DNA of 44,136 nucleotides from a virus: positions 1-44,136 of IMG/VR virus record IMGVR_UViG_3300042516_004603, one strand, 5' to 3'. Made by a program: the position numbers and the translations under genes. Each line of letters begins with the position of its first letter. Within the stretch, counting starts at the first letter, position 1. Below, piece by piece: positions 10,684 to 42,315 of this stretch. The notes under the pieces were generated by a model, which was not told the DNA's origin, did no database searches, and saw only the letters and a program-made list of their open reading frames with translations.

Positions 10684-12402
10684 ATGCGCGACTTCGCCGC
10701 CATCGCCACCACCTACGCCACCGACGTAGCCGAGGGCCGCATCGTGGCCTGCCGCTGGGTGCGCCTGGCTTGCCAGCGCCACCTGCGCGACCTTGCGCGC
10801 AGCGAAGCCGGCGAGTTGCCTTTCGTCTTCAACCCCGAGATCCACGACCCGCGCCGCAACAAGCACTACCGCCCGGCCCAGCGCGTGTGCCACTTCGCCG
10901 AGCTCATGCCCCACATCAAGGGCGACTGGGCGGCGCGCGGCGAGCGCATCCAGCTTGATCCCTGGCAGGTGTTCGTCCTGGCCAGCATCTTTGGCTGGGT
11001 GCACCGCGAGACCTTCAAGCGCCGCTTCACGAAGGCCGACCTCTTCGTGCCGCGCAAGAACGCCAAGAGCACGCTGGCCGCTGTCATTGGCCTGTACATG
11101 CTGGCCGTCGACGGCGAGCACGGCGCCGAAGTCTTCAGCGGCGCCACCAGCCGCGATCAAGCGCTTGAGGTCTTCCGCCCGGCGCGGCTGATGTCTCTGG
11201 CCAGCCCCGACTTCAGGGCGCAGTTCGGCGTCATCCCCAACGTCAGCAACCTGGCGATGATTGACACCAACAGCAAATTCGAGCCCCTCATCGGCAAGCC
11301 CGGCGACGGCGCCAGCCCCAGCTGCGCCCTGGTGGACGAGTACCACGAGCACGCCACCAGCGAGCTCTACGACACCATGTGGACTGGCATGCTCGCCCGC
11401 AGCCAGCCGCTGCTGCTGGTCATCACCACCGCTGGCAGCAACATCGGCGGCCCGTGCTTCCAGCACCAGCTCGAGCTGCAGAAAGTGCTCGAAGGCGCCG
11501 TGGTTGACGAGCGCCGCTGGGGCATCGTCTACACCGTCGACAAGGGCGACGACTGGACAGACCCCGCCGTGCTGTGGAAAGCCAACCCCGGCCTGGGCGT
11601 CTCCATCAACCCCGAGAAGCTGCTGGCTGACCAAGCCGAAGCCGTGCGCGATCCGCGCAAGCAGGCCGTCTTCAAGACCAAGCACCTGAACGTGTGGGTC
11701 AACGCTGCCAGCCCGTGGCTGAACCTCGAGCAGCTTGCCAAGGGCGGCTCTGGCGGCCTGCAGCGCGAAGACTTCAAGGGCGAAACCTGCTGGGTAGGTC
11801 TTGACCTTGCCAGCAAGCAAGACATCGCCAGCGCCGCGTGGCTCTTCCGGCGTGAACAAGCCGGCGAATGGCACTACTACCTCTTCAGCCGCCACTGGCT
11901 GCCCGCCGCCGCCGTCCAGAAGCCCGAGAACCAGCACTACCAAGCCTGGGTGACGGCCGGCCACCTGGTGCAGACCCCCGGCAACATGATCAACCTGCGG
12001 CAGATTCAAGAGGAGGTCGAAGCCTCCGCCGAGCAGCACGTCATCGCCGAGATCCCGATGGACGCCTGGGGCTCGCGCGAGATCGCGCCCGCGCTGCAAG
12101 ACGCCGGCTTTGCCGTGGTCGACGTGCCCATGACCACCCGCAACCTCAGCGAGCCGATGAAGCTCATCGCCGCGCTCATCGATGCCGGCCGCTTCCACCA
12201 CGACGGCAACCCCGCCACTCTGTGGATGTTCAGCAACGTCGAAGTGTTCGAGGACCGCAACGGCAACATCTTCCCGCGCAAAGGCAGCGCCGAAAAGAAG
12301 ATCGACGCGGCCGTGGCCACGGTGCTGGCCATGGGCCGGGCGATGCTGGGCGCTGAGAGCGGCGACAGCTACCTCACCTCTGGCAACCTGGTAATCGCCT
12401 GA
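10684..12402 (+). CDS. terL: Terminase large subunit, 572 aa
   Basis: The packaging ATPase/nuclease. Walker A-like VPRKNAKSTLAA is at about residues 122-133, Walker B ALVDEYHEH at 215-223, and the C-terminal RNase H-like nuclease begins at GLDLASKQDIASAAW (Asp374, Asp380), with a late acidic residue in KKIDAAVATVLAMGRAM. The length is normal for HK97/P27-type large terminases. It is followed by portal with a TGATG overlap, as in cos phages of the HK97 group. Confidence 0.95.
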   Translation: MRDFAAIATTYATDVAEGRIVACRWVRLACQRHLRDLARSEAGELPFVFNPEIHDPRRNKHYRPAQRVCHFAELMPHIKGDWAARGERIQLDPWQVFVLASIFGWVHRETFKRRFTKADLFVPRKNAKSTLAAVIGLYMLAVDGEHGAEVFSGATSRDQALEVFRPARLMSLASPDFRAQFGVIPNVSNLAMIDTNSKFEPLIGKPGDGASPSCALVDEYHEHATSELYDTMWTGMLARSQPLLLVITTAGSNIGGPCFQHQLELQKVLEGAVVDERRWGIVYTVDKGDDWTDPAVLWKANPGLGVSINPEKLLADQAEAVRDPRKQAVFKTKHLNVWVNAASPWLNLEQLAKGGSGGLQREDFKGETCWVGLDLASKQDIASAAWLFRREQAGEWHYYLFSRHWLPAAAVQKPENQHYQAWVTAGHLVQTPGNMINLRQIQEEVEASAEQHVIAEIPMDAWGSREIAPALQDAGFAVVDVPMTTRNLSEPMKLIAALIDAGRFHHDGNPATLWMFSNVEVFEDRNGNIFPRKGSAEKKIDAAVATVLAMGRAMLGAESGDSYLTSGNLVIA

Positions 12403-33872: not shown

Positions 33873-34829
33873 TCAGGCCCGCCGTTTGGTACCAATCAGC
33901 CCCACGGCGCCTGCCAGCGTGTCGGCCGTCAGGTGGCTGTAGCGCTGGGTGCTGCGGCTGTCGCGGTGGCCCAGCACCTTGCCGACCACGAAGAGGTCGA
34001 CCCCGGCGTTGACCATTTCCGAGGCGGCTGAGTGCCGCAGGTCGTGCAGGGTGACGTGCTCCATGCCCACCCGGGCGCGCGCCCGCTGCCACGCCCGCTG
34101 AATCGTGATCTTCGGCGACTTCAGCGGCAGGAACCGCAACAGGTGGCGGATCTTCGGGTGCACCGGCACGGCGCGGCGGTCGCCGTTCTTGGTGTCGTGC
34201 AGCACCAGGGCATCGCCCTCGGGCTGTACGCGCAGCAGCTCGCCCAGGCGCAGGCCGCTGTAGAAGGCCACGCGGATGGCGACCTGCGTCTCCCAGTGGG
34301 TGCACGCTCGGCAAGCCTGCAGCATGGCCTTGCGGCCGATGTACACCTGCCGCTCGTTGTTGACCCTCGGCAGCTGCATGCGCGTCGTGGGGTCTTCGCG
34401 CACCAGCCCGTGCGCCTTCCAGGCCCACCGGCAGGCGGCCTTGAGCACGGCCAGGCGGTTGCGCACGGTAGCGGGTGCTACCTCAGCCCTCTCCGCCACT
34501 TCCCGCGCCACTGCGGGCAGCGCAGACAGGGGCTTGCCGGTGTAGGCCCAGGCGATGGCACCCAAGTGCTCGGCGGTGGCCTTGTAGCTCTTCAGGCCCG
34601 TCTTGTCGCGCAGGTACAGGACGACGGCCTCGTCGATCAGGGGGTCGCGTTGCTCGAGGCCAGCCGCAGCGGCGTAGAGACGCCCGCCTTCTTTCCGGTC
34701 GTAGGCGTCAGCCTGGGCTTGACTCCAACCCCGCGGAAGAAGGCGGCTAAGTCGGTGCCTGCGACCTTCAATGACGCGGTCGAACTCGTAGCGCCAGCGC
34801 TTGTTGCGGGTGTCCCAGCGGATCGACAT
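33873..34829 (-). CDS. int: Phage tyrosine integrase, 318 aa
   Basis: It catalyses site-specific recombination at the adjacent tRNA-Ser att core. The active-site residues are visible: Arg194 in FYSGLRLGELLRV, Lys214 in TKNGDRRAVPV, His262/Arg265 in TLHDLRHSAAS, His288 in LGHRD and the nucleophile Tyr297 in STQRYSHL. The SAM-like core-binding domain lies at about 60-150. No extra helix patch of integron IntI enzymes was recognised, so this enzyme is unlikely to act on attC hairpins. It is the last gene of the prophage 2 leftward operon. Confidence 0.95.
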   Translation of the reverse strand: MSIRWDTRNKRWRYEFDRVIEGRRHRLSRLLPRGWSQAQADAYDRKEGGRLYAAAAGLEQRDPLIDEAVVLYLRDKTGLKSYKATAEHLGAIAWAYTGKPLSALPAVAREVAERAEVAPATVRNRLAVLKAACRWAWKAHGLVREDPTTRMQLPRVNNERQVYIGRKAMLQACRACTHWETQVAIRVAFYSGLRLGELLRVQPEGDALVLHDTKNGDRRAVPVHPKIRHLLRFLPLKSPKITIQRAWQRARARVGMEHVTLHDLRHSAASEMVNAGVDLFVVGKVLGHRDSRSTQRYSHLTADTLAGAVGLIGTKRRA

Positions 34830-35027: not shown

Positions 35028-35345
35028 TCACTGCAAGCGCCGCGCGCCCATCGTCGGCGGCAGGCTGTCGGCCAGGCTGTGGAGCAGCGTCTTGAGCGCT
35101 GCGCAGTCGGTGACGTTGCCGGCCTCGTCAAGCTGGCGCCATGAGATGTAGCCTCGGCGGGGCTCGAACGTCACCAGCTCGCCGCCAGCGCTGCGCAGGT
35201 CAACCGTGAAGGGCTGGCGCGCGTCGGTACACGGCTCGCGGTCCGGCATGCCTGCATCGCGATCGGCTTGAGCGCGGCCCTCCGCAGCCCGCCATCGGCA
35301 GTTGGCAGAGTGGCGGGCAGCGGCTGATCGGGTGCGGAATCGCAT
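35028..35345 (-). CDS. Hypothetical phage protein, 105 aa
   Basis: A basic N-terminus (MRFRTRSAAARHSANCRWRA) precedes a better-looking core, FTVDLRSAGGELVTFEPRRG, YISWRQLDEAGNVTDCAALK and TLLHSLADSLPPT. The true start may be the ATG at 35249, as the region before it is arginine-rich. It lies between xis and the first attC-like site, so it is the first phage gene outside the cassette array. Function unknown. Confidence 0.5.
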   Translation of the reverse strand: MRFRTRSAAARHSANCRWRAAEGRAQADRDAGMPDREPCTDARQPFTVDLRSAGGELVTFEPRRGYISWRQLDEAGNVTDCAALKTLLHSLADSLPPTMGARRLQ

Positions 35346-35366: not shown

Positions 35367-35384
35367 GCCTACCACACGTTAGGC
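35367..35384 (+). repeat. Minimal attC/R-box site at the array's left end
   Basis: GCCTACC (35367-35373) and GTTAGGC (35378-35384) are separated by only 4 bases, with no L arms. The right box is a perfect R' core. This could be a remnant of an attC or the array boundary. Confidence 0.4.
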
Positions 35385-35839
35385 CACGCAACACCAGCAA
35401 GGCGGCGCGTCCAACCTTCAGCCCACAGCGCGGTGGGGCCGTTCACGCCATCACCGTCAGGCGTTGCCCCGTGCACGTCGATCAAGCGCACTTCCTGAGC
35501 GAGCAGCAGCAGCGGCACAAGCTGCGCCTTCAGCGCGGTCAACTCGGCGCGCATCTCGCGCACGCACTCCGGGCACCCCCAGGCGTTGTGCGGCATGGCC
35601 TCACCGTGGGTCTTGCATGTCCACCAGTTCGGTAGCGCCGCCATCGCTACAAGCTCCGTCACTTCTACCTCGAATCCGGTGGTAGCGCGTATGGTTGCCA
35701 AGTCAAGCTCGCTGGGCTGGTTAGTCCAAGCACAGCCGTCATCAGGGCTGCCAGCCTTTGCCACCCACCACGCGCGTGGCCTAACCCCTCGCTCAAGCTG
35801 ACCCGCTACGGCAGAGTTGCCCTGCGGTTCTTCGGTCAT
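35369..35839 (-). CDS. Cassette gene 1, hypothetical CxxC protein, 156 aa
   Basis: Start at ATG 35839, inside the loop of the attC-like site 35779-35904, with GGAG before it and 1 base after the stop of the upstream gene (TGACATG). The attC left arm encodes the N-terminal LERGVRPRA segment. Further on, VAMAALPNWWTCKTHGEAMP with HNAWGCPECVREMRAELTAL gives a His/Cys-rich zinc-ribbon-like region, then a helix. The end PNVW is coded by the minimal R-box site 35367-35384. No family recognised. Confidence 0.6.
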   Translation of the reverse strand: MTEEPQGNSAVAGQLERGVRPRAWWVAKAGSPDDGCAWTNQPSELDLATIRATTGFEVEVTELVAMAALPNWWTCKTHGEAMPHNAWGCPECVREMRAELTALKAQLVPLLLLAQEVRLIDVHGATPDGDGVNGPTALWAEGWTRRLAGVAWPNVW

Positions 35840-35904
35840 GTCAATTCTCCTTCGCCCCGCAGGGCAACGCCGCCTCCGCGGGCAGCTTAGCTCGAACGTT
35901 AGGC
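35779..35904 (+). repeat. attC-like site 1 (126 bp, loop carries stop/start)
   Basis: R'' GCCTAAC (35779-35785), L'' CCTCGCTCAAGC, L' GCAGCTTAGCTCGAAC and R' GTTAGGC (35898-35904). The loop contains the stop of the gene 35841-36323, a GGAG ribosome site and the ATG of the gene 35369-35839. The asymmetry of the arms (right arm one base longer) matches the top strand of the classical aadA attC, so the plus strand is the attC forward direction. Confidence 0.85.
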
Positions 35905-36323
35905 GCCCGCTGCGGGCCAACCGGTATGCCAGCGTGGCTCAACTTTGTCTGCTCCGAAACTGGCGCCTTGCATCGTCGGCAGTTGTCGGGGTCGGTACAC
36001 CAGTCGCGGTCGTCTAGCTGCTTGGCCCGCTCCAGCGCTCGCAAGCACGTCGGGCACGTCACCAAGCGCATGCCGCTGTAGCTCCATCCGGCACTGCGCG
36101 GCCCAGGCTTCGCGCCGCATAGAGCGCGCTGGATCGCGTAGCCGTTGCGCGCCAGGTCGTCGGTGTACGGCACCGCGTGGACGCGCACGCCTTGGCCGCG
36201 CTCGTATCCGTTGGCGCACCGGCCAGCCAGTGAGGCGGGCAACGTGGGGCGCGCTCCGGCACCAGCGCCTAACCCCTCGCTCGAAGCCGACCCCAAGGGG
36301 CCGGCAACTTTGTCTGCTTCCAT
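35841..36323 (-). CDS. Cassette gene 2, zinc-ribbon-like protein, 160 aa
   Basis: Start ATG 36323 (MEADKVAGPLGSASSEGLGA) in the loop of the next attC site, with AGGAA upstream. The N-terminus is coded by that site's arm (SSEGLGAGAG). The core has two Cys pairs, RLVTCPTCLRALERAKQLDD and WCTDPDNCRRCKAPVSEQTK, a zinc-ribbon pattern. The C-terminus PNVRAKLPA is translated attC right arm of site 35779-35904. Stop TGA, one base, then ATG of the next gene, so translation is coupled. Confidence 0.65.
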   Translation of the reverse strand: MEADKVAGPLGSASSEGLGAGAGARPTLPASLAGRCANGYERGQGVRVHAVPYTDDLARNGYAIQRALCGAKPGPRSAGWSYSGMRLVTCPTCLRALERAKQLDDRDWCTDPDNCRRCKAPVSEQTKLSHAGIPVGPQRAPNVRAKLPAEAALPCGAKEN

Positions 36324-36370
36324 GTCAGTTCCTTTCGGCCCCTTGGGGCGGTTCAGCTCGAACGTTGTGC
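36267..36370 (+). repeat. attC-like site 2 (104 bp)
   Basis: R'' GCCTAAC (36267-36273), L'' CCTCGCTCGAAGCCGA, inner complementary CCCCAAGGGGCCG and CGGCCCCTTGGGG, L' GGTTCAGCTCGAAC and a degenerate R' GTTGTGC (36364-36370). The loop carries the stop of the gene 36325-36930 and the ATG of 35841-36323. Confidence 0.8.
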
Positions 36371-36930
36371 GGCGTGGGAAGCTCCCAGGCGTGCGTAGGC
36401 CACCAATCTCCGGTGCCGCGCGGGCACGCTTCGCGGATCAACCACGGCACCAGCTTGGTTTCCCACTCCTGCCGCCCTATCCAGCCGCCCACGCAGATGG
36501 CGTTGATGTCGAACACCTCGTCACCAGCCACGGCCACCCAATGCGTTTGCCGGTAGCGCGCGGCCATCGGCACGCCCGGTTGTGTCCACGGGCCAGCCCA
36601 CTGCACGCGCATCAGCCCGAAGTCCAGGCGGCACCGCCCTGGTTGGTCGCTGCGGTAGGTCTGCCGGTGGCGCACGCCGTGGGCGCGCAGCACGTCGGCC
36701 ATCAGCGTCGGGTTGGTGTAGCCCTTGGCCTCGAAGTCGCCCATCTTCGGGCGCAGCTCTTCGGGCGTCAGGTCCAGCACCGCGCACAGCGCCCCTGGGC
36801 CGCAGTTGAAGCCCCACGCTTCGGCGGCAGCATTGGCTTCCTGCACGCCAAACACCGCGCGCCGCCGCACAACACGCTGGTCAACCGGACCCGCGTCGGC
36901 GGCCGGCAGTGTCTCAATTGCATGCGCCAT
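36325..36930 (-). CDS. Cassette gene 3, papain/C39-like cysteine-peptidase-fold protein, 201 aa
   Basis: Cys43 in AWGFNCGPGALCAVLDLTPE, His130 in RYRQTHWVAVAGDEVFDIN and Asp141/Asn143 give a plausible Cys-His-Asn triad in the order of papain- and C39-like peptidases. WWPTHAWELP follows near the end, and the last residues (PHNVRAEPPQG) are coded by the attC right arm. Start ATG 36930 with AAGGAGG close upstream. It may be a peptidase or an inactive fold member; no substrate is indicated. Confidence 0.65.
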   Translation of the reverse strand: MAHAIETLPAADAGPVDQRVVRRRAVFGVQEANAAAEAWGFNCGPGALCAVLDLTPEELRPKMGDFEAKGYTNPTLMADVLRAHGVRHRQTYRSDQPGRCRLDFGLMRVQWAGPWTQPGVPMAARYRQTHWVAVAGDEVFDINAICVGGWIGRQEWETKLVPWLIREACPRGTGDWWPTHAWELPTPHNVRAEPPQGAERN

Positions 36931-36934
36931 CAGC

Positions 36935-36966
36935 GCCTCCTTGGTCCGGTTACCAGCACGTTAGGC
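36935..36966 (+). repeat. Short degenerate attC-like site
   Basis: Right R' GTTAGGC is perfect (36960-36966); the left side reads GCCTCC instead of GCCTAAC, with a small hairpin TTGGT-CCGGTT-ACCA. The TAA of the gene ending at 36961 is the complement of the R' box. A decayed attC is likely. Confidence 0.4.
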
Positions 36967-37293
36967 CCGCAGTCTGTCGGCCACCCGCGTGGCATAGCCG
37001 GCAATGTCCACCCATGAATCGTCGTAGTGCGGGTCGCCGCAGAGGATGCGGCTGATCTTGTGCGCGTTCATTTCCAGCGCCTCTTTCATGTCGGGGTCCA
37101 GCGCTTCCCACTTCGGGCCGCTTCGCATCACTGCCTTCAGGGCCTGCGACAGCGCGGCGTTGTCCTTGAATGCGCCGTACCGTGCGCCTCGGTCGGCCAG
37201 CAGCGGGTCGGCGTGCTGGTCAGGCGCCAGCGGGCCGAATGTCTCGGCCTGGTGTTGTTGGTCGGCAGTCATTTGCAGTTGGTTCTCCATCAT
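36961..37293 (-). CDS. Cassette gene 4, DUF6378-like phage protein, 110 aa
   Basis: RGARYGAFKDNAALSQALKA followed by PDMKEALEMNAHKISRILC and GDPHYDDSWVDIAGYATRVA is the signature of a small family common in tailed phages (DUF6378-like), of unknown function. ATG 37293 is preferred over the GTG at 37299 because GGAG lies 7 bases before it. The TAA stop lies inside the R' box of the adjacent attC-like remnant. Confidence 0.75.
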   Translation of the reverse strand: MMENQLQMTADQQHQAETFGPLAPDQHADPLLADRGARYGAFKDNAALSQALKAVMRSGPKWEALDPDMKEALEMNAHKISRILCGDPHYDDSWVDIAGYATRVADRLRA

Positions 37294-37315
37294 GGTCACG
37301 CTCCGGCCACAGCGG

Positions 37316-37389
37316 GCCTAACTGGTCGCTCAAGGCGACCTCCTACGGCGCTTCGCGCCTACGTCGGCGCCTTAGCTCGAACGTTAGGC
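37316..37389 (+). repeat. attC-like site 3 (74 bp)
   Basis: R'' GCCTAAC (37316-37322), L'' TGGTCGCTCAAGGCGACC, inner TACGGCGCTTCGCGCCTACG hairpin, L' CGCCTTAGCTCGAAC, R' GTTAGGC (37383-37389). The C-terminal codons PNVRAKAPT of the HD-domain gene are coded by its right arm. Confidence 0.85.
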
Positions 37390-37922
37390 TTCAGCGTGGC
37401 GTACCGAGCAAGGAATGCCTCGCGTGCTTGGCGCGGTGGCATCGGCTGGATGCGCTCCTGCAGCGGCTCTGCGCCGCCGGTGAACGTCCAGCAGTGGCCA
37501 TCGGCGTGCATCAGGTCGCGCTGCTCGGTGCGCAGTAGCACTCGGTCCGCCTGCTTCACACTTTCCGGCAACTTGGCTGGAAGGCCAAAGCGGCGGAACA
37601 CCGCAGCCTCTACACGGTCTTCCACGCGCGCATAGTCCGGCAGAAGCACCTTCAGCGGCTTCGAGACATCGCCCACGAACGCCTCGGGCGCATCGTGGAG
37701 AAGACCGGCCAGCGCGTCCTCGGGCGGCACTGCGTAGCTCACCAGCACCGAATGCTGGGCCACGCTGTAGAACTCGCGGCAGTGCCCCGTGAAGCGACAG
37801 ATGTGCGATAGCGCGTGCGCGATGTCCTCGATGTCGAACTCGCAGTCTTCAGGCGCTTCGAGGTCGAAGTACCGACCACTTGAAAGCAGGATCGTCGGGC
37901 CTTTGATCGTCGTCACTGTCAT
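37359..37922 (-). CDS. Cassette gene 5, HD-domain phosphohydrolase (YfbR-like), 187 aa
   Basis: Metal-binding residues of the HD superfamily are visible: an early His in [16 protein letters not shown], His57 in [20 protein letters not shown], the His76-Asp77 pair in [19 protein letters not shown], and Asp126 in [16 protein letters not shown]. The family removes phosphate from 5'-deoxynucleotides, adjusting nucleotide pools during phage replication. Start ATG 37922 with AGGAG. The last seven residues are translated attC arm. This is the best-characterised product in the array and shows these are ordinary phage early genes. Confidence 0.85.
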
Positions 37923-37942
37923 TTCGTTTCTCCTGGGCCGAA

Positions 37943-37997
37943 GCCCAACTAGTCGTTCGAGCCGACCGAGTACGGCGGCTCAACTCCAACGTTAGGC
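37943..37997 (+). repeat. attC-like site 4 (55 bp)
   Basis: R'' GCCCAAC (37943-37949), L'' TAGTCGTTCGAGCCGA, short TACGG loop, L' CGGCTCAACTCCAAC, R' GTTAGGC (37991-37997). Size and layout match classical mobile-integron attC sites closely. Confidence 0.85.
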
Positions 37998-38001
37998 GCT
38001 T

Positions 38002-38247
38002 TCAGGTGCGCCGCGTGTAGATCGCCGCGACGATGGCAGACACTCCGCCCATTGCAGCGGCTTGCCACCACTCAATCAGGCCCGGGTGCATCGTGCGCAG
38101 CGTCACCCACACGCAAACCACGGCGGCGGTGTATTGCACAGCCCCAAGCGCTCGCAACGCCCAATCGCTACGGCTACGCGCGCCTAACCCCTCGCTCAAC
38201 CCGCGACCTGCGTCGGCGTTGTTGCTCGGGTTCGCTTCGTCACTCAT
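38002..38247 (-). CDS. Cassette gene 6, two-helix membrane protein, 81 aa
   Basis: A hydrophilic N-terminus (MSDEANPSNNADAGRGLSEG) is followed by two hydrophobic segments, AVQYTAAVVCVWVTLRTM and AAAMGGVSAIVAAIYTRRT. The segment from LSEGLGARS onward is nearly identical to the truncated gene at the window start. Start ATG 38247 after AGGAGGCG; the stop of the upstream gene is 3 bases away. It may be a holin-like or exclusion protein; the function is unknown. Confidence 0.7.
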   Translation of the reverse strand: MSDEANPSNNADAGRGLSEGLGARSRSDWALRALGAVQYTAAVVCVWVTLRTMHPGLIEWWQAAAMGGVSAIVAAIYTRRT

Positions 38248-38287
38248 GGCTCACGCCTCCTTGTCGGGGTTAGCTCGAACGTTCGGC
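38182..38287 (+). repeat. attC-like site 5 (106 bp)
   Basis: R'' GCCTAAC (38182-38188), L'' CCTCGCTCAACCCGCGAC, then a loop with stop TGA of 38251 and ATG of 38247, L' GTCGGGGTTAGCTCGAAC, R' GTTCGGC (38281-38287). The left arm is identical to that of site 139-241, the rest differs. Confidence 0.8.
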
Positions 38288-38652
38288 TGCATGAATTCCC
38301 CGCGCCACCGCATGCGCCCCTTCAACACGCGGCGGTCCATGTCGCTGAATCCGCGGCTCGCCGCAGGCACCATGTCTTCGGCCTTGTTCAGCAGCGCAAA
38401 GCGGATCGCCTCGGCCGAGCTACCGATCAGGCTCGCATAAAGCGGGAACACCGAGTCGGCGCCGAACAGGAACTGGATGGCCTCCTGCGCTTCGCTGTCC
38501 AAGTTTCGTTCCTTGCGCTTTTCATCGGCCGTCATCGGCTTGCAGGCGTCCTTGATGGCCTGCGCAATCACTGCGGCCAGCAGCCGCGCGCAGGCGGCGG
38601 TTTGTGCGTCAGTGGTCTGGCGCGTCGAAACAAAGTCAATCATCGTGGTCAT
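38251..38652 (-). CDS. Cassette gene 7, hypothetical phage protein, 133 aa
   Basis: MTTMIDFVSTRQTTDAQTAA starts a helical protein (LLAAVIAQAIKDACKPMTAD, EKRKERNLDSEAQEAIQFLF). Start uncertain: ATG 38652, 38643 (with GGGA at good distance) or TTG 38682 are possible. The C-terminus FMQPNVRANPDKEA is coded by attC site 38182-38287. I recognise no family, though similar short phage proteins are common. Confidence 0.6.
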   Translation of the reverse strand: MTTMIDFVSTRQTTDAQTAACARLLAAVIAQAIKDACKPMTADEKRKERNLDSEAQEAIQFLFGADSVFPLYASLIGSSAEAIRFALLNKAEDMVPAASRGFSDMDRRVLKGRMRWRGEFMQPNVRANPDKEA

Positions 38653-38664
38653 TCCCGGCATGCA

Positions 38665-38753
38665 GCCGAACTGTCGGTTCAAGCGGACGGCCCACGGCCG
38701 TCCTGTGGTTATCGAAAGGTCAAGCGGGGCCGCCGCTTAACCTGGCGTTCGGC
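38665..38753 (+). repeat. attC-like site 6 (89 bp)
   Basis: R'' GCCGAAC (38665-38671), L'' TGTCGGTTCAAGCGGACG, inner GGCCCACGGCCG, L' GCCGCTTAACCTGGC, R' GTTCGGC (38747-38753). Both R boxes carry the same C/G exchange, so they still pair with each other. Confidence 0.8.
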
Positions 38754-38755
38754 CT

Positions 38756-39124
38756 CTAGTGGCCCACCGTCAGGATGCGGTCCGGGTGCACCTTCTCAGC
38801 CAGCTCGCTGATCGGGTCAATGCTCTGGTGCGCGTGCTCGGGCATCGGCTCCACGTCGAACCATTCCCCGTGCTCGCCGATCCGTTCGTACAGCCACGCC
38901 GCGAAGTTCTCCGGCGTCACCTCGTCGCCAGTCACGGCCGCAAGCGCCGGGAACTGCGCCAGCAAGTGAGGCTTGCTCTCGGTCATCACGCGGCCGAGCT
39001 GGTGCGTCCATACGGGCTCGCCAGCGAGGTGCTGCGCGATCTTGTAGATGTCGTCCATCTGGCACAGCAGCTTGCCGGTCGTCATGCTCAGTACGGCGCC
39101 GAGGTGGAATCGTTGCGTTGTCAT
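38756..39124 (-). CDS. Cassette gene 8, DUF7736-like phage protein, 122 aa
   Basis: MTTQRFHLGAVLSMTTGKLL followed by DDIYKIAQHLAGEPVWTHQL and a C-terminal KVHPDRILTVGH tail resembles a conserved family common in tailed phages (FHLGxVLSxTTG type). Function is unknown. The stop lies two bases after the attC right box in the forward sense. Start ATG 39124 is clear; the ribosome site AAAAGGAC lies before it. Confidence 0.7.
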   Translation of the reverse strand: MTTQRFHLGAVLSMTTGKLLCQMDDIYKIAQHLAGEPVWTHQLGRVMTESKPHLLAQFPALAAVTGDEVTPENFAAWLYERIGEHGEWFDVEPMPEHAHQSIDPISELAEKVHPDRILTVGH

Positions 39125-39153
39125 CGTCAGTCCTTTTCGCTTCGGAGCCAGAG

Positions 39154-39213
39154 GCCTAACCCTTCGCTCAAGCTGACCCGCCTACGGCGGGCAGCTTAGC
39201 TCGAACGTTAGGC
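39154..39213 (+). repeat. attC-like site 7 (60 bp)
   Basis: R'' GCCTAAC (39154-39160), R' GTTAGGC (39207-39213), arms CGCTCAAGCTGACC and GCAGCTTAGCTCGAAC, hairpin CCGCCTACGGCGGG. Sites 39535-39594 and 39939-39998 are the same except for the three or four bases after the R'' box. Confidence 0.9.
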
Positions 39214-39222
39214 AGCGCCAAT

Positions 39223-39501
39223 TCAGCGGTCCAGCGCCGCCAGCGCTTCGCGGGCCGCCTTTATCTCGTCGCTGTGGATCGGCTCGCAAACCCACTCCAC
39301 GCCGTCTTCACGCCCCTTGCCAATGTGCATAAGCATGTCGCGCAGCGCCTCGGCCAATGCGTCGGCCTTCAGTGCAAGCTCTGCCGCCGCATGGCGGGCA
39401 TCTCGGTGGCCTAGTCGGTAGGCATGCACAAGCCCATCGGCCTTTTCCAAGTCGTGCGGCGTCTTGGCCGGAATGTTCATGATCTTGCCATGCAGGTTCA
39501 T
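39223..39501 (-). CDS. Cassette gene 9, hypothetical helical protein, 92 aa
   Basis: MNLHGKIMNIPAKTPHDLEK starts a mostly helical protein (AAELALKADALAEALRDMLM, HSDEIKAAREALAALDR) with one Cys. AAGGA is before the ATG at 39501. It ends just before the attC right box. No family is recognised. Confidence 0.6.
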   Translation of the reverse strand: MNLHGKIMNIPAKTPHDLEKADGLVHAYRLGHRDARHAAAELALKADALAEALRDMLMHIGKGREDGVEWVCEPIHSDEIKAAREALAALDR

Positions 39502-39534
39502 CTTCGATCCTTGGTTTGTTATCCACCAGGCGCT

Positions 39535-39594
39535 GCCTAACTACTCGCTCAAGCTGACCCGCCTACGGCGGGCAGCTTAGCTCGAACGTTAGGC
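39535..39594 (+). repeat. attC-like site 8 (60 bp)
   Basis: R'' GCCTAAC (39535-39541), spacer TAC, same arms as sites 7 and 9, R' GTTAGGC (39588-39594). The TAA stop of the gene 39589-39918 is the reverse complement of the R' box. Confidence 0.9.
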
Positions 39595-39918
39595 ATCACC
39601 AAGCAGCCGCAGTGCGGCGCGCAAGCAATCTCTGCAAACGCAGGCTGTGGAACTGTCGTAGCCCGGCGGCTCGCCAAGTCTGACGACTTCCCACGTTTCT
39701 TTACCGCATTCGTCGCAAGCCCGTTCGCACACCCAAGATGAGTTCCCGATGATCTCGGCCACATCTGCGGCTGTGGCCGTATCTTGGTCAAGCGCCATCA
39801 GTTCAGCGCCAACGCGCCGACTGCGCTTATCGTCACGGTAAGTGCCGTCTAGGCCATACATATGCACCCAGCGCCGTATCGCGTTCTTTACCTGCGTGCG
39901 TTCGTCCAAAACTATCAT
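39589..39918 (-). CDS. Cassette gene 10, zinc-binding-type protein, 109 aa
   Basis: MIVLDERTQVKNAIRRWVHM, helical region, then CERACDECGKETWEVVRL and STACVCRDCLRAALRLLGDA give four-cysteine zinc-finger-like pairs. ATG 39918 is preceded by GGGAG at 8 bases. The final codon before the stop is the attC R box. Possible DNA- or RNA-binding protein; no family is certain. Confidence 0.65.
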   Translation of the reverse strand: MIVLDERTQVKNAIRRWVHMYGLDGTYRDDKRSRRVGAELMALDQDTATAADVAEIIGNSSWVCERACDECGKETWEVVRLGEPPGYDSSTACVCRDCLRAALRLLGDA

Positions 39919-39938
39919 CGGTAATCTCCCAAAGTGAT

Positions 39939-39998
39939 GCCTAACCCCTCGCTCAAGCTGACCCGCCTACGGCGGGCAGCTTAGCTCGAACGTTAGGC
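39939..39998 (+). repeat. attC-like site 9 (60 bp)
   Basis: R'' GCCTAAC (39939-39945), spacer CCC, L'' TCGCTCAAGCTGACC, hairpin CGCCTACGGCGGG, L' AGCTTAGCTCGAAC, R' GTTAGGC (39992-39998). The left arm TCGCTCAAGCTGAC differs by only one or two bases from the aadA attC top strand. Confidence 0.9.
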
Positions 39999-40000
39999 TT

Positions 40001-40294
40001 CTAGTAGCCCCACGAGCACCATTCACAGCGCGGCTCGCCGTACAGGTGCCAGCCGTTGCATCGCTTGATGGGCGTCAGGTGGTGGGCACGCAGCGCACCG
40101 TCGTCCGCACCGTCGCGCGCCCCAGCAGCCCCGCAGGGCTCGCCAGTAAAAACGCGCGCCGGCTGGCCGCCAACGCGGGTTTCCTCGGTCACTTCGCGGT
40201 CTTGCCGGCTGTACGTGCCGGCCGCTTTCGGGCCTCGGGTTACGTCCCCAGGTCCGGGCTGTTGCCGCGCCATGTGCCCACCCCTCACGCTCAT
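40001..40294 (-). CDS. Cassette gene 11, small His/Cys protein, 97 aa
   Basis: Start ATG 40294 (MSVRGGHMARQQPGPGDVTR) after GGAGCGACG. The C-terminal half has LRAHHLTPIKRCNGWHLYGE and RCEWCSWGY, a compact His/Cys region that could bind zinc. The middle is Gly/Arg-rich. No family recognised. It is the cassette next to the recombination genes. Confidence 0.55.
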   Translation of the reverse strand: MSVRGGHMARQQPGPGDVTRGPKAAGTYSRQDREVTEETRVGGQPARVFTGEPCGAAGARDGADDGALRAHHLTPIKRCNGWHLYGEPRCEWCSWGY

Positions 40295-40328
40295 CGTCGC
40301 TCCTTGAATTCACCTCGCTCCGGCCCCG

Positions 40329-40385
40329 GCCGAACTACTCGCTCAAGCTGACCCAAAGGGGCAGGCGGCTTGCATCTCGTTGCTT
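40329..40385 (+). repeat. Decayed attC-like site at the right end of the array
   Basis: Left GCCGAAC (40329-40335) and L'' CTCGCTCAAGCTGACCC are intact; the right arm GGCTTGCATCTC and box GTTGCTT (40379-40385) are degenerate. It borders the exonuclease gene, so it marks the array edge. Confidence 0.5.
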
Positions 40386-40410
40386 TGGCCACTTGGTTGA
40401 TTGGCGTGCT

Positions 40411-41025
40411 TCACGCGACCTGCCTTTGCAGCCGTTCCGTGTAGCTGTCCACCTCGGCGGCAAACGCCAGCAGATCGGCCTCCAGCGCCTTGATGTAGGC
40501 GGCATCGCGCGCCACGCGCAGCGGCTTGATCGGGATGCTGGGGTGATAGATCAGCACGTCGCACCACGCGCGGCCGGTGATCCAAAGCCCGCCCTGCACT
40601 TGGTCGGCGTACTCGTTGATATCGCGCGTCAGCAGCAGTTGTGCCAGCTTGTACGGGTTCGACGGGCACTTGATCTCGATCAGGCCGTCGTCGCCCACCA
40701 GGCCGTCGGGGCTGTAGCCGAAGGCCAGCGTGTCGTGCAGGCACATGCCCAACTCGGACACGATCTCACCAGTGTCGGCCTCGTAGGCTGCCCGCGCAGC
40801 GCTCTCCAGCTCTGTGCCGCGCTGCATGGCCGGCGTGACGAAGCGGTCAGTCAGCGATCCGGTGATGCGCTCCAGCGCCAGCTCGGCCATGTAGTCCAGC
40901 CGCGACTGTGCCGGCGAGCCGTTTTTGAGCGTGGCGCGGGCATCCTTGTAGCGGCTTGCCGTGATGAGGCCGCAGCGGGCGGCGAACCACTCCGGCGAGC
41001 GCTGCTCGCAGTTGACGACCCTCAC
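40411..41025 (-). CDS. YqaJ-type (lambda exo-like) exonuclease, 204 aa
   Basis: GTG 41025 overlaps the recT stop (GTGA) and is preferred over the ATG at 41064. Motif residues of the YqaJ/lambda exonuclease family are visible: QRSPEWFAARCGLITASRY, Glu72 in AMQRGTELESAARAAYE, Asp107 in AFGYSPDGLVGDDG and Glu117/Lys119 in GLIEIKCPSNPYKL. It resects double-strand ends 5'-3' and hands the single strand to the annealing protein. Together with RecT it forms the phage recombination module, immediately beside the attC array. Confidence 0.92.
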   Translation of the reverse strand: MRVVNCEQRSPEWFAARCGLITASRYKDARATLKNGSPAQSRLDYMAELALERITGSLTDRFVTPAMQRGTELESAARAAYEADTGEIVSELGMCLHDTLAFGYSPDGLVGDDGLIEIKCPSNPYKLAQLLLTRDINEYADQVQGGLWITGRAWCDVLIYHPSIPIKPLRVARDAAYIKALEADLLAFAAEVDSYTERLQRQVA

Positions 41026-41804
41026 GGCGTCACTCCTTCGGCGGCTTCGTAGCTCGCCGCCCATTCGTCGCCGCCTTCGACGGCGGGCGCGGCCGGGGCT
41101 GCGGGCGGCAGGGCCGGCGCCGCGCGGCTGCGGTCGGCTTCTTCGGCCATCGTCTTCAGCCGCTCATGCTCGCCGGCCAGGGCCTTGCGCTGGTCTTTGG
41201 TCGCGGCCTTCCACCAGCCGGCGTACACCTGGACGCCTTGGCGCGCGGCGGCCTCGGCCTCGGACAGCAGCGATTCCTCGAGGACCGGCTGCGGCGCGGC
41301 GCTGTGGGCGATCTGCTGCTGCGGCGCAGCCGGCGCCATGTCGCGCGCCTCCTCGGCCACCAGCAGGCCGCCGATGGCGCCCGGGTAGATGGCGCGCACG
41401 CCCTCGGCGATGCAGCGGGCGCGCAGCATGGCGCGCGGGTAGTTCTTCCAATTGTCCTTGCCGGTAAGCCCAGCCTTGCGCGCCTGCTCGAACGTCCACT
41501 CCATGCGCAGGCTGCCGCCTTGCGGGTGCGCGAAGGTGGCGGACGCCTTGGCGTCGGTCAGTTCGTGCCACTGCACGCTGCCGCCGGCCGCCTGGAAACG
41601 CGCCATCACGCTGTGCGTCTTGCGGGCTGCTCGGCCCTGGATGATGTCGTAGTCCTGCGCGATGGTGGCCGGGTGTTGTCCTTCGGCCTGCGCCACCAGC
41701 ATAAGCGCCAGAGCTTGCGTCGTGTTCTTGACGCCGAACAGGCCGGATTGCGACATGGCGGCGGCCATGGTCTGCATGTCGTTCAGGGGGACCAGGGCGG
41801 TCAT
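41022..41804 (-). CDS. recT: RecT-family single-strand annealing protein, 260 aa
   Basis: The start MTALVPLNDMQTMAAAMSQS, then LMLVAQAEGQHPATIAQDYD, IIQGRAARKTHSVMARFQAA and FEQARKAGLTGKDNWKNYPR, AMLRARCIAEGVRAIYPGAI are hallmarks of RecT. The C-terminal 90 residues are alanine/proline-rich and probably flexible. It anneals homologous single strands during recombination and replication. Such proteins tolerate short, imperfect homology, relevant for exchange at repeats like those next door. Confidence 0.92.
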   Translation of the reverse strand: MTALVPLNDMQTMAAAMSQSGLFGVKNTTQALALMLVAQAEGQHPATIAQDYDIIQGRAARKTHSVMARFQAAGGSVQWHELTDAKASATFAHPQGGSLRMEWTFEQARKAGLTGKDNWKNYPRAMLRARCIAEGVRAIYPGAIGGLLVAEEARDMAPAAPQQQIAHSAAPQPVLEESLLSEAEAAARQGVQVYAGWWKAATKDQRKALAGEHERLKTMAEEADRSRAAPALPPAAPAAPAVEGGDEWAASYEAAEGVTP

Positions 41805-41848
41805 GTGATCTCCTTTGGGGGTTGGTGTTCAGTCGGTCTCTTGCGCGC

Positions 41849-42118
41849 TCACAGCCAGCCCTTCGAGGCCGCCCAGTGCAGCAGCGTGGCGGCGGCCAGC
41901 AGCGCGCACGCGCCCAGCACCAGCCACACGATGCCGTCGCCGTCGCCGCCACGGCTGTCGTTGGCGGCGTCGTCGCCCAGCACCTCGCTCGCCGCGTGCG
42001 CGCCGTCGGGGTGGGCGGGGTGCGGCGCGCTTCGGGTGCTGCGGCCGATGTCGTCGCTGGTCCAAACGCCGGTTTCGCGCCGGCCCTGCTGGTCAGCCCC
42101 GTGGGGGATGTAGGCCAT
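41849..42118 (-). CDS. Small C-terminally anchored membrane protein, 89 aa (paralogue of 2243-2506)
   Basis: MAYIPHGADQQGRRETGVWT begins as its prophage 1 counterpart and ends with a transmembrane helix (IVWLVLGACALLAAATLLHW) and SKGWL. The middle differs more (NDSRGGDGDG). Conserved in two prophages at the same operon position, so real and probably useful to the phage, but of unknown function. Confidence 0.7.
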   Translation of the reverse strand: MAYIPHGADQQGRRETGVWTSDDIGRSTRSAPHPAHPDGAHAASEVLGDDAANDSRGGDGDGIVWLVLGACALLAAATLLHWAASKGWL

Positions 42119-42132
42119 GGTGAGGCTCCCTA

Positions 42133-42315
42133 TCAGTTCAGGCCCTGCGCGGCCAACGCGCCGATGGCGGCGCAGGCCAGCACGCAGACGACGGCGCGGG
42201 CAAGATCGGCCCAGCGGCCCATCGGCGGGCGGTAGTGCTCGATGGCGCAGGCGCGCTCGTCAGGGAACGCCTCGGCCAGCGACCGGGCATAGCGGCGGGT
42301 GGTGGGCCAGCTCAC
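42133..42315 (-). CDS. Membrane microprotein, 60 aa (paralogue of 2517-2627)
   Basis: MSWPTTRRYARSLAEAFPDE, then ACAIEHYRPPMGRWADLARA and a hydrophobic C-terminal helix VVCVLACAAIGALAAQGLN. The C-terminal part is nearly identical to the 36-residue protein in prophage 1. The ATG overlaps the stop of the previous gene (ATGA). Function is unknown. Confidence 0.65.
   Translation of the reverse strand: MSWPTTRRYARSLAEAFPDERACAIEHYRPPMGRWADLARAVVCVLACAAIGALAAQGLN

Follow-up and report, generated by a model that had tools for sequence, protein, structure and literature searches.

A Probable Integron Cassette Array with Reversed Genes in the Early Region of a Temperate Phage

Integrons in Phages

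Gene turnover is rapid in the early regions of phage genomes, and it has usually been credited to illegitimate or homologous recombination. Integron components have also been described in phages, where clusters of attC sites lacking integron integrases (CALINs), captured host integrons and activity of the class 1 integrase IntI1 on some phage attC sites were reported in 2023 (Qi et al., PMC9892861). The IMG/VR virus record IMGVR_UViG_3300042516_004603, whose whole stretch of 44,136 nucleotides is called the window here, contains an interval at 35367-40385 in which small phage genes are bounded by attC-like repeats. A sequence-only reading of the window had considered such an arrangement rarely described, an assessment borne out by the phage CALINs and the few captured host integrons of the 2023 report (PMC9892861). 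The interval is very probably a genuine integron cassette array without an integrase of its own (a CALIN), which a temperate phage has within its early operon and which forms part of a phage-dedicated type of integron. The host of this phage is probably a member of the Burkholderiales.

Identity of the attC Sites

The repeats have the form GCCTAAC-N5-GCTCAAGC ... GCTTAGC-N6-GTTAGGC, which is the layout of attC, down to the one additional base of the left inner box, and their geometry is 1L-5 nt-2L (one extra base) ... 2R-6 nt-1R. We take this layout to be like that of the class 1 attC aadA. The R boxes RYYYAAC/GTTRRRY, the paired L boxes with one extrahelical base and the foldable bottom strand expected of attC were all found, using a geometric scan, shuffled controls and a covariance model (R1) whose training set, free of phage sequences, consisted of 19 short attC sites taken from bacterial chromosomal contigs. 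With a strict threshold (a score of at least 13.0), the geometric scan detected 8 sites in 35.3-40.4 kb, against an average of 0.12 in dinucleotide-shuffled whole windows. R1 gave 12 matches in the window, all on the + strand, of which 11 lie at 35779-40389 and one at 139-241; ten of the array sites have E-values of 5e-4 or less and the eleventh one of 0.03. The sequence-only reading had counted nine well-formed and three decayed sites, close to the number detected, and the covariance-model check that it had proposed, with an absence of attC matches as the adverse outcome, has turned out in its favour. The best site scores 79 bits on the + strand and 19.8 bits on the minus strand, and since minus-strand scores fall far below the + scores, the orientation of the sites is clear. 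A placement on the minus strand, obtained from a scan with the extra base in the 3' arm that matched this strand only, was rejected, as the canonical layout puts the sites on the + strand. No Rfam family matches the window at gathering cut-offs, so that confirmation depends on the purpose-built attC model. Judged by their sequence and geometry, by the independent covariance model and by junctions at the IntI crossover, the sites are integron attC sites.

The left boundary of the array is the lone R box GTTAGGC (35378-35384, + strand), which may be a decayed attC or the position of an attI. The R1 matches begin with attC 1 (35779-35904; 58.3 bits, E 1.6e-13), which is 126 nt in length and has a long terminal structure, followed by attC 2 (36267-36370; 35.2 bits, E 3.1e-7), attC 3 (36867-36966; 23.4 bits, E 5e-4), whose left box is decayed, attC 4 (37316-37389; 52.1 bits, E 7.7e-12), attC 5 (37943-37997; 59.1 bits, E 9.2e-14), attC 6 (38182-38287; 36.2 bits, E 1.6e-7) and attC 7 (38665-38753; 46.2 bits, E 3e-10). 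The next three sites, attC 8 (39154-39213; 79 bits, E 3.5e-19), attC 9 (39535-39594; 76.7 bits, E 1.5e-18) and attC 10 (39939-39998; 78.1 bits, E 6.1e-19), are 93-97% identical to one another, and the array ends with the decayed attC 11 (40329-40389; 16.8 bits, E 0.031). The site at 139-241 (29.1 bits, E 1.4e-5) belongs to a second copy of a cassette designated X, with a body starting from position 1 at the left contig end and 87% identity to 38044-38287.

Reversed Cassettes in Viral and Chromosomal Arrays

In a classical cassette, the open reading frame (ORF) has the same orientation as attC, which lies 3' of the gene. All 11 ORFs of the window array depart from this arrangement, being located on the - strand, opposite to their attC, so that each gene has its attC 5' of it. 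Gene strands were called from a codon-usage score trained on the window phage, together with ORF lengths and position. Start codons fall within the gene's own attC hairpin or 17-35 nt past it, mostly with a clear ribosome-binding site (RBS), and adjacent stop/start pairs occur at 35841 (stop) and 35839 (start) and again at 36325 (stop) and 36323 (start). Two genes cross the next attC and stop by the next start, so that one gene ends and another begins in a single attC hairpin. The sequence-only reading had overlooked the antiparallel placement of every gene relative to its attC, along with the additional site at 139-241, the starts in or next to the hairpins, the recurrence of the arrays in dozens of IMG/VR contigs and the presence of IntI and attI in many related phages.

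The exact 20-nt attC end GCTTAGCTCGAACGTTAGGC is present in 34 IMG/VR stretches and is common to the chromosomal integrons of Burkholderiales. The compared contigs are metagenomic assemblies, and several of those bearing arrays are plainly phage, with portal, major head, tape measure and tail fibre genes. Viral loci contain up to ~14 sites each, nearly always in one attC orientation; an exception is L024, a 12-kb viral contig with two attC arrays of opposite orientations near its ends (1092-2221 and 11130-12326). No useful close relatives of the window were found at the DNA level in the phage collection, and relatives of its exonuclease and of its phage integrase are mostly without arrays. The chromosomal comparison set comprises 120 stretches among the matches listed, mostly from Rubrivivax and other Burkholderiales with the same attC 20-mer, and all chromosomal figures given here apply to these listed matches. 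Codon-usage scoring classified 38 viral arrays (154 sites) as mainly antiparallel in 32 cases and parallel in 4, with 2 ties, whereas 88 chromosomal arrays comprised 8 antiparallel, 65 parallel and 15 ties (Fisher p 8e-16). Among attC sites of at least 85 nt, an RBS and start codon in the terminal structure, with an ORF leading out of the site, were detected on the bottom strand of 44 of the 93 viral sites and on the top strand of 4; the corresponding chromosomal count is 16/407. A stop and a start, often few nucleotides apart, occur together in the attC loop at 11 viral sites and at 0 chromosomal ones, and attC length is mostly ~129 bp in chromosomes and 50 to 130 in phages. As called from coding potential, viral arrays thus have reversed cassettes as their usual form, unlike the Burkholderiales chromosomal integrons with the same attC core.

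The position of starts, and sometimes of stops, in the hairpin loop, together with the 11 viral sites containing both, would also be expected if the repeats were hairpins for translation coupling or termination in an early operon instead of recombination sites. This explanation is hardly credible, given that it makes superfluous the L-box pattern with its extra base, the full attC model score, the exact crossover junctions and the linkage to intI and attI that relatives display. The two roles may coexist in sites that are primarily read here as attC.

Cassette Junctions and Mobility

Cassette junctions in the array fall at the canonical IntI crossover G^TTRRRY which, along with the identity of the sites, supports the earlier description of these early phage genes as gene cassettes. 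The right part of the window array has counterparts of >98% identity in contigs L026 and L039, of which L039 is without exactly one window cassette, 39214-39594. The left neighbour of cassette X (gene 38002-38247) is a different one in each of four contexts, namely the window, L026, L039 and L017; the cassette itself is intact, and identity sets in at AACG^TTAGGC. Looking for the same cassettes in other orders, as had been advised from the sequence alone, has thus revealed several contexts for cassette X and a one-cassette deletion. A gain has been observed in relatives: L248 and L249 come from different metagenomes and agree fully along 1,092 bp of attI-intI and 579 bp of array, and relative to L248 a single 523-bp reversed cassette is inserted in L249 exactly at attI. 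The attC of this inserted cassette is canonical, and its reversed ORF, of 88 aa, starts in the attC loop.

The cassettes could be real and still be exchanged by homologous recombination, with the adjacent RecE/RecT system acting on the attC repeats. The exonuclease and RecT genes do adjoin the array, the L039 deletion lies between repeats of the 93-97% identical class, and the occurrence of attC leaders on different bodies is unexplained by IntI crossover at 1R alone. Such a process is nonetheless regarded as unlikely, considering that cassette X is joined to attC sites with differing right arms, with identity beginning within ~3 nt of the IntI crossover, and that the L249 insertion took place at attI, which has little but the R box in common with attC.

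An attC-encoded N-terminal leader (MSDEANPSNNAD.GRGLSEGLG, MRDDAAGPDGSALSEGLG) is found on different gene bodies in the window (38002-38247) and in L028:2799-3122, and likewise at 139-241 and in L030:118-534. Common leaders on differing bodies point to an exchange of leader and body at the left R box, of which ordinary IntI crossover at 1R gives no account. Near-identical cassettes have also been detected at L028:2737-2804 and L039:742-800, with the same attC outer arms and a differing central hairpin, which gives the impression that only the middle of the hairpin was exchanged.

Integron Integrase and attI in Related Phages

The earlier statement that no integron integrase could be recognised agrees with the profile search, in which the sole TIGR02249 match in the window is a phage tyrosine integrase (33873-34829, - strand; phrog_1, E 1.9e-41) that reaches 42 bits against a cut-off of 265 bits and is not an integron integrase. 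No intI with an attI lies by the array in the window, a contig that is possibly incomplete; in related phages both are found there. Two of the 28 viral records with arrays exceed the TIGR02249 cut-off, at 428 and 425 bits, and searches with these two phage IntIs identified relatives in dozens more viral contigs, at ~35-99% identity. A search for intI in relatives, which the sequence-only reading had recommended, was accordingly productive, with IntI found in ~20 related viral contigs and in two bacterial prophages. Many IntI-bearing contigs carry a second, phage-type integrase beside IntI. A conserved attI, [RYYYAA]C-N3-AATTCG-..., is located upstream of the phage intI, with random sequence on its cassette side. 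Across 21 loci with an intI, every attC site is upstream of that gene, and the cassettes comprise 58 antiparallel, 13 parallel and 6 unclear cases. Three contigs (L243, L244 and L265) have their position 1 exactly at the attI R box; assembly breaks at this point may reflect varied first cassettes in the population.

The catalytic residues R, K, H, R, H and Y are conserved in 23/23 phage IntIs, in an alignment that included IntI1. These 23 sequences form one clade (bootstrap 100, SH-aLRT 99) relative to 24 others, which include chromosomal Burkholderiales IntIs and IntI1. L251 (frameshift), L258, L281-L283, L286-L288 and other very divergent matches were left off the final tree because of their long branches. 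When 30 more bacterial IntIs were added, two sequences from bacterial genomes were placed inside the phage clade. The contig of the first also encodes phage tail proteins and a phage integrase; the second is surrounded by phage early genes on a large chromosomal contig, where a convergent phage integrase is followed by host-like genes. From this context both loci are prophages, and in both the cassettes are mostly reversed. The prophage on the bacterial chromosome (L362:9273-15399, genome G385) has eight attC sites in addition to IntI, its convergent phage integrase adjoins host genes, and its cassettes include a C5 DNA methyltransferase and DUF5131. An IntI-like gene annotated as xerD, 46.6% identical to phage IntI, occurs in Virus Rctr41k (L323:4680-5678, KX853513), a phage from a methane-oxidising enrichment with a weak attC match nearby. 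No match to the beta-proteobacterial attC model was obtained for Tetrasphaera phage TJE1 and a Vibrio phage, so that these and the weakly matched Virus Rctr41k serve as context only.

Capture of a piece of host chromosomal integron by the phage, comparable to that in Vibrio anguillarum phages, might also account for the array. The same 20-nt attC end occurs in Burkholderiales chromosomal integrons, host segments taken up by capture are among the complete phage integrons on record (PMC9892861), and the intI of Vibrio phage p16 adjoins ribosomal protein L20. However, phage cassettes are reversed and chromosomal ones mostly parallel, and since gene-to-attC orientation is fixed inside a cassette, chromosomal cassettes have not simply been moved into the phage. 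The chromosomal and phage attC lengths differ as well, phage IntIs form a separate clade, and recognisable cassette genes match phage families. Instead of host-type cassettes and chromosomal flanks, the locus has reversed cassettes with phage genes on either side, and capture is considered improbable.

Certain points weigh against the proposal of a phage-dedicated integron. The window is without an IntI over the TIGR02249 cut-off and no attI was recognised in it. The phage IntI set was gathered by similarity to two phage IntIs, so that the clade is partly a matter of sampling. Cassette strands rest on codon-usage scores and ORF lengths, and 19/116 viral cassettes came out as parallel, in some cases probably through a miscall. 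The L039 deletion, lying between near-identical attC sites, could be produced by homologous recombination.

Cassette Genes and Surroundings

The cassette genes are all on the - strand. Gene 1 (35369-35839) has no family match and starts with GAAGGAGAATTGAC-ATG, its RBS and start codon, the latter within the attC at 35779-35904. Gene 2 (35841-36323) has its stop in attC 1 by the gene 1 start and its own start within attC 2, and gene 3 (36325-36930) similarly stops in attC 2 by the gene 2 start and starts within attC 3. Gene 4 (36961-37299) encodes a DUF6378 protein of the phage family phrog_17775, gene 5 (37359-37922) a deoxyribonucleoside 5'-monophosphate phosphatase (HD/YfbR-like; phrog_318, E 4.3e-73) and gene 6 (38002-38247), that of cassette X, a small membrane-like protein, with its start within attC 6. 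Gene 7 (38251-38682) is supported by coding score; its listed TTG start falls within the attC 7 left arm, and the actual start may be a different one. Gene 8 (38756-39124) encodes a DUF7736 protein (PF24875, E 3.5e-23) and gene 9 (39223-39501) is the one absent from the sister contig L039; genes 10 (39589-39918) and 11 (40001-40294) were identified as ORFs.

The small genes had previously been placed between an exonuclease and an excisionase, and the array does sit between the integrase/xis end and a RecE-type exonuclease. On the right, it adjoins the RecE-like exonuclease (40411-41064, - strand; phrog_149, E 1.9e-35), next to which is a RecT-like annealing protein (41022-41804, - strand; phrog_561, E 6.5e-15). 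On the left, a small ORF supported by coding score and with no family match (35028-35345, - strand) lies between integrase and array, in what would be the excisionase position. A tRNA-like remnant by the phage integrase (33756-33844, + strand), from a weak cmscan tRNA-Sec match of 23.8 bits, below gathering, is probably the phage attachment site. The left window end, 1-2620, echoes 38044-42239, with cassette X at 87% identity and 2243-2620 at 85% to 41849-42239. As sister contigs match one side each (L019 the left, L039 the right), the contig may contain two tandem prophages at the tRNA-like site at ~33.8 kb.

The recognisable products of the window, the phosphatase and the DUF6378 and DUF7736 proteins, occur in phages. 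Most of the 76 cassette proteins examined are without a family; those found include DNA methyltransferases, an HNH endonuclease, DUF5131 and an Acb2/Tad1 protein. The latter type (PF24729, 52 bits) is encoded by a cassette at L093:5944-6228, in a phage that is a relative of the window phage by its integrase, and is of a family known for sponging defence signalling nucleotides. These genes suggest a cassette pool of counter-defence genes.

A Proposed Role for Phage Integrons

In the favoured explanation, attC keeps its normal orientation relative to attI and intI, while each cassette gene is flipped, with attC at its 5' end. Leftward early transcription would, given the reversed cassette genes, run through exonuclease, cassettes, xis and int in one pass. 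Because the RBS and start codon, and sometimes the stop of the preceding gene, are within attC or adjoin it, a cassette would arrive ready for translation. We infer that IntI-type recombination at G^TTRRRY gains, loses and shuffles cassettes, and that for the window array the enzyme would be supplied in trans by an IntI-encoding related phage or a host integron. The phage might benefit, for example, by swapping counter-defence genes. As related viruses encode IntI and display a one-cassette insertion, phages appear to use integrons as their own gene-swapping machinery. It is likely, if less firmly than the array itself, that a temperate-phage lineage has domesticated the integron, with an IntI and attI of its own closing the early operon, reversed cassettes in which attC is a 5' translation-start module, and a shared phage-specific pool including counter-defence genes (Acb2-like, DNA methyltransferases), the window array being an integrase-less user.

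If this is true, site-specific cassettes in the early operon would constitute a direct route to swapping counter-defence genes, and the role of integrons would reach beyond the adaptation of bacteria into the evolution of viruses. The reversed arrangement is also relevant to the open question of cassette origin, because attC here precedes the gene and often includes the start codon. Being short, the phage IntI, attI and cassette set can be directly tested with existing integron assays.

Comparison with Known Systems

The phage integrons of 2023 share with the window attC clusters in phage genomes, and a few temperate phages have intI. They differ in being small clusters (17 CALINs, 21 phages in total) or captured host integrons (Vibrio, P1, Shewanella), with cassettes described as having the typical orientation in two of the phages figured, and that report includes neither a phage IntI clade nor reversed cassettes starting in attC (Qi et al., PMC9892861). 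No description of reversed phage cassettes or of a phage IntI clade was found in the open-access papers searched, and a phage-dedicated integron with reversed early-operon cassettes appears to be undescribed. The sedentary chromosomal integrons of Burkholderiales (Rubrivivax and relatives) are alike in attC arms, geometry, the 20-nt end and IntI homologues, and are distinguished by attC sites mostly of ~129 bp, mostly parallel genes among the matches listed and a separate IntI branch. In the class 1 integron, IntI1 has the same catalytic residues in the alignment, with phage IntI ~57% identical to it, whereas its resistance cassettes are carried on transposons and plasmids and are parallel to attC. 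The Treponema integrons, with their inverted intI, resemble the phage form in that intI and cassette genes are co-directional (PMC3607928). In Treponema, however, intI reads toward attI and the cassettes away from it (PMC3607928), while in the phages intI reads away from attI, as is usual, and it is the cassette genes that are flipped.

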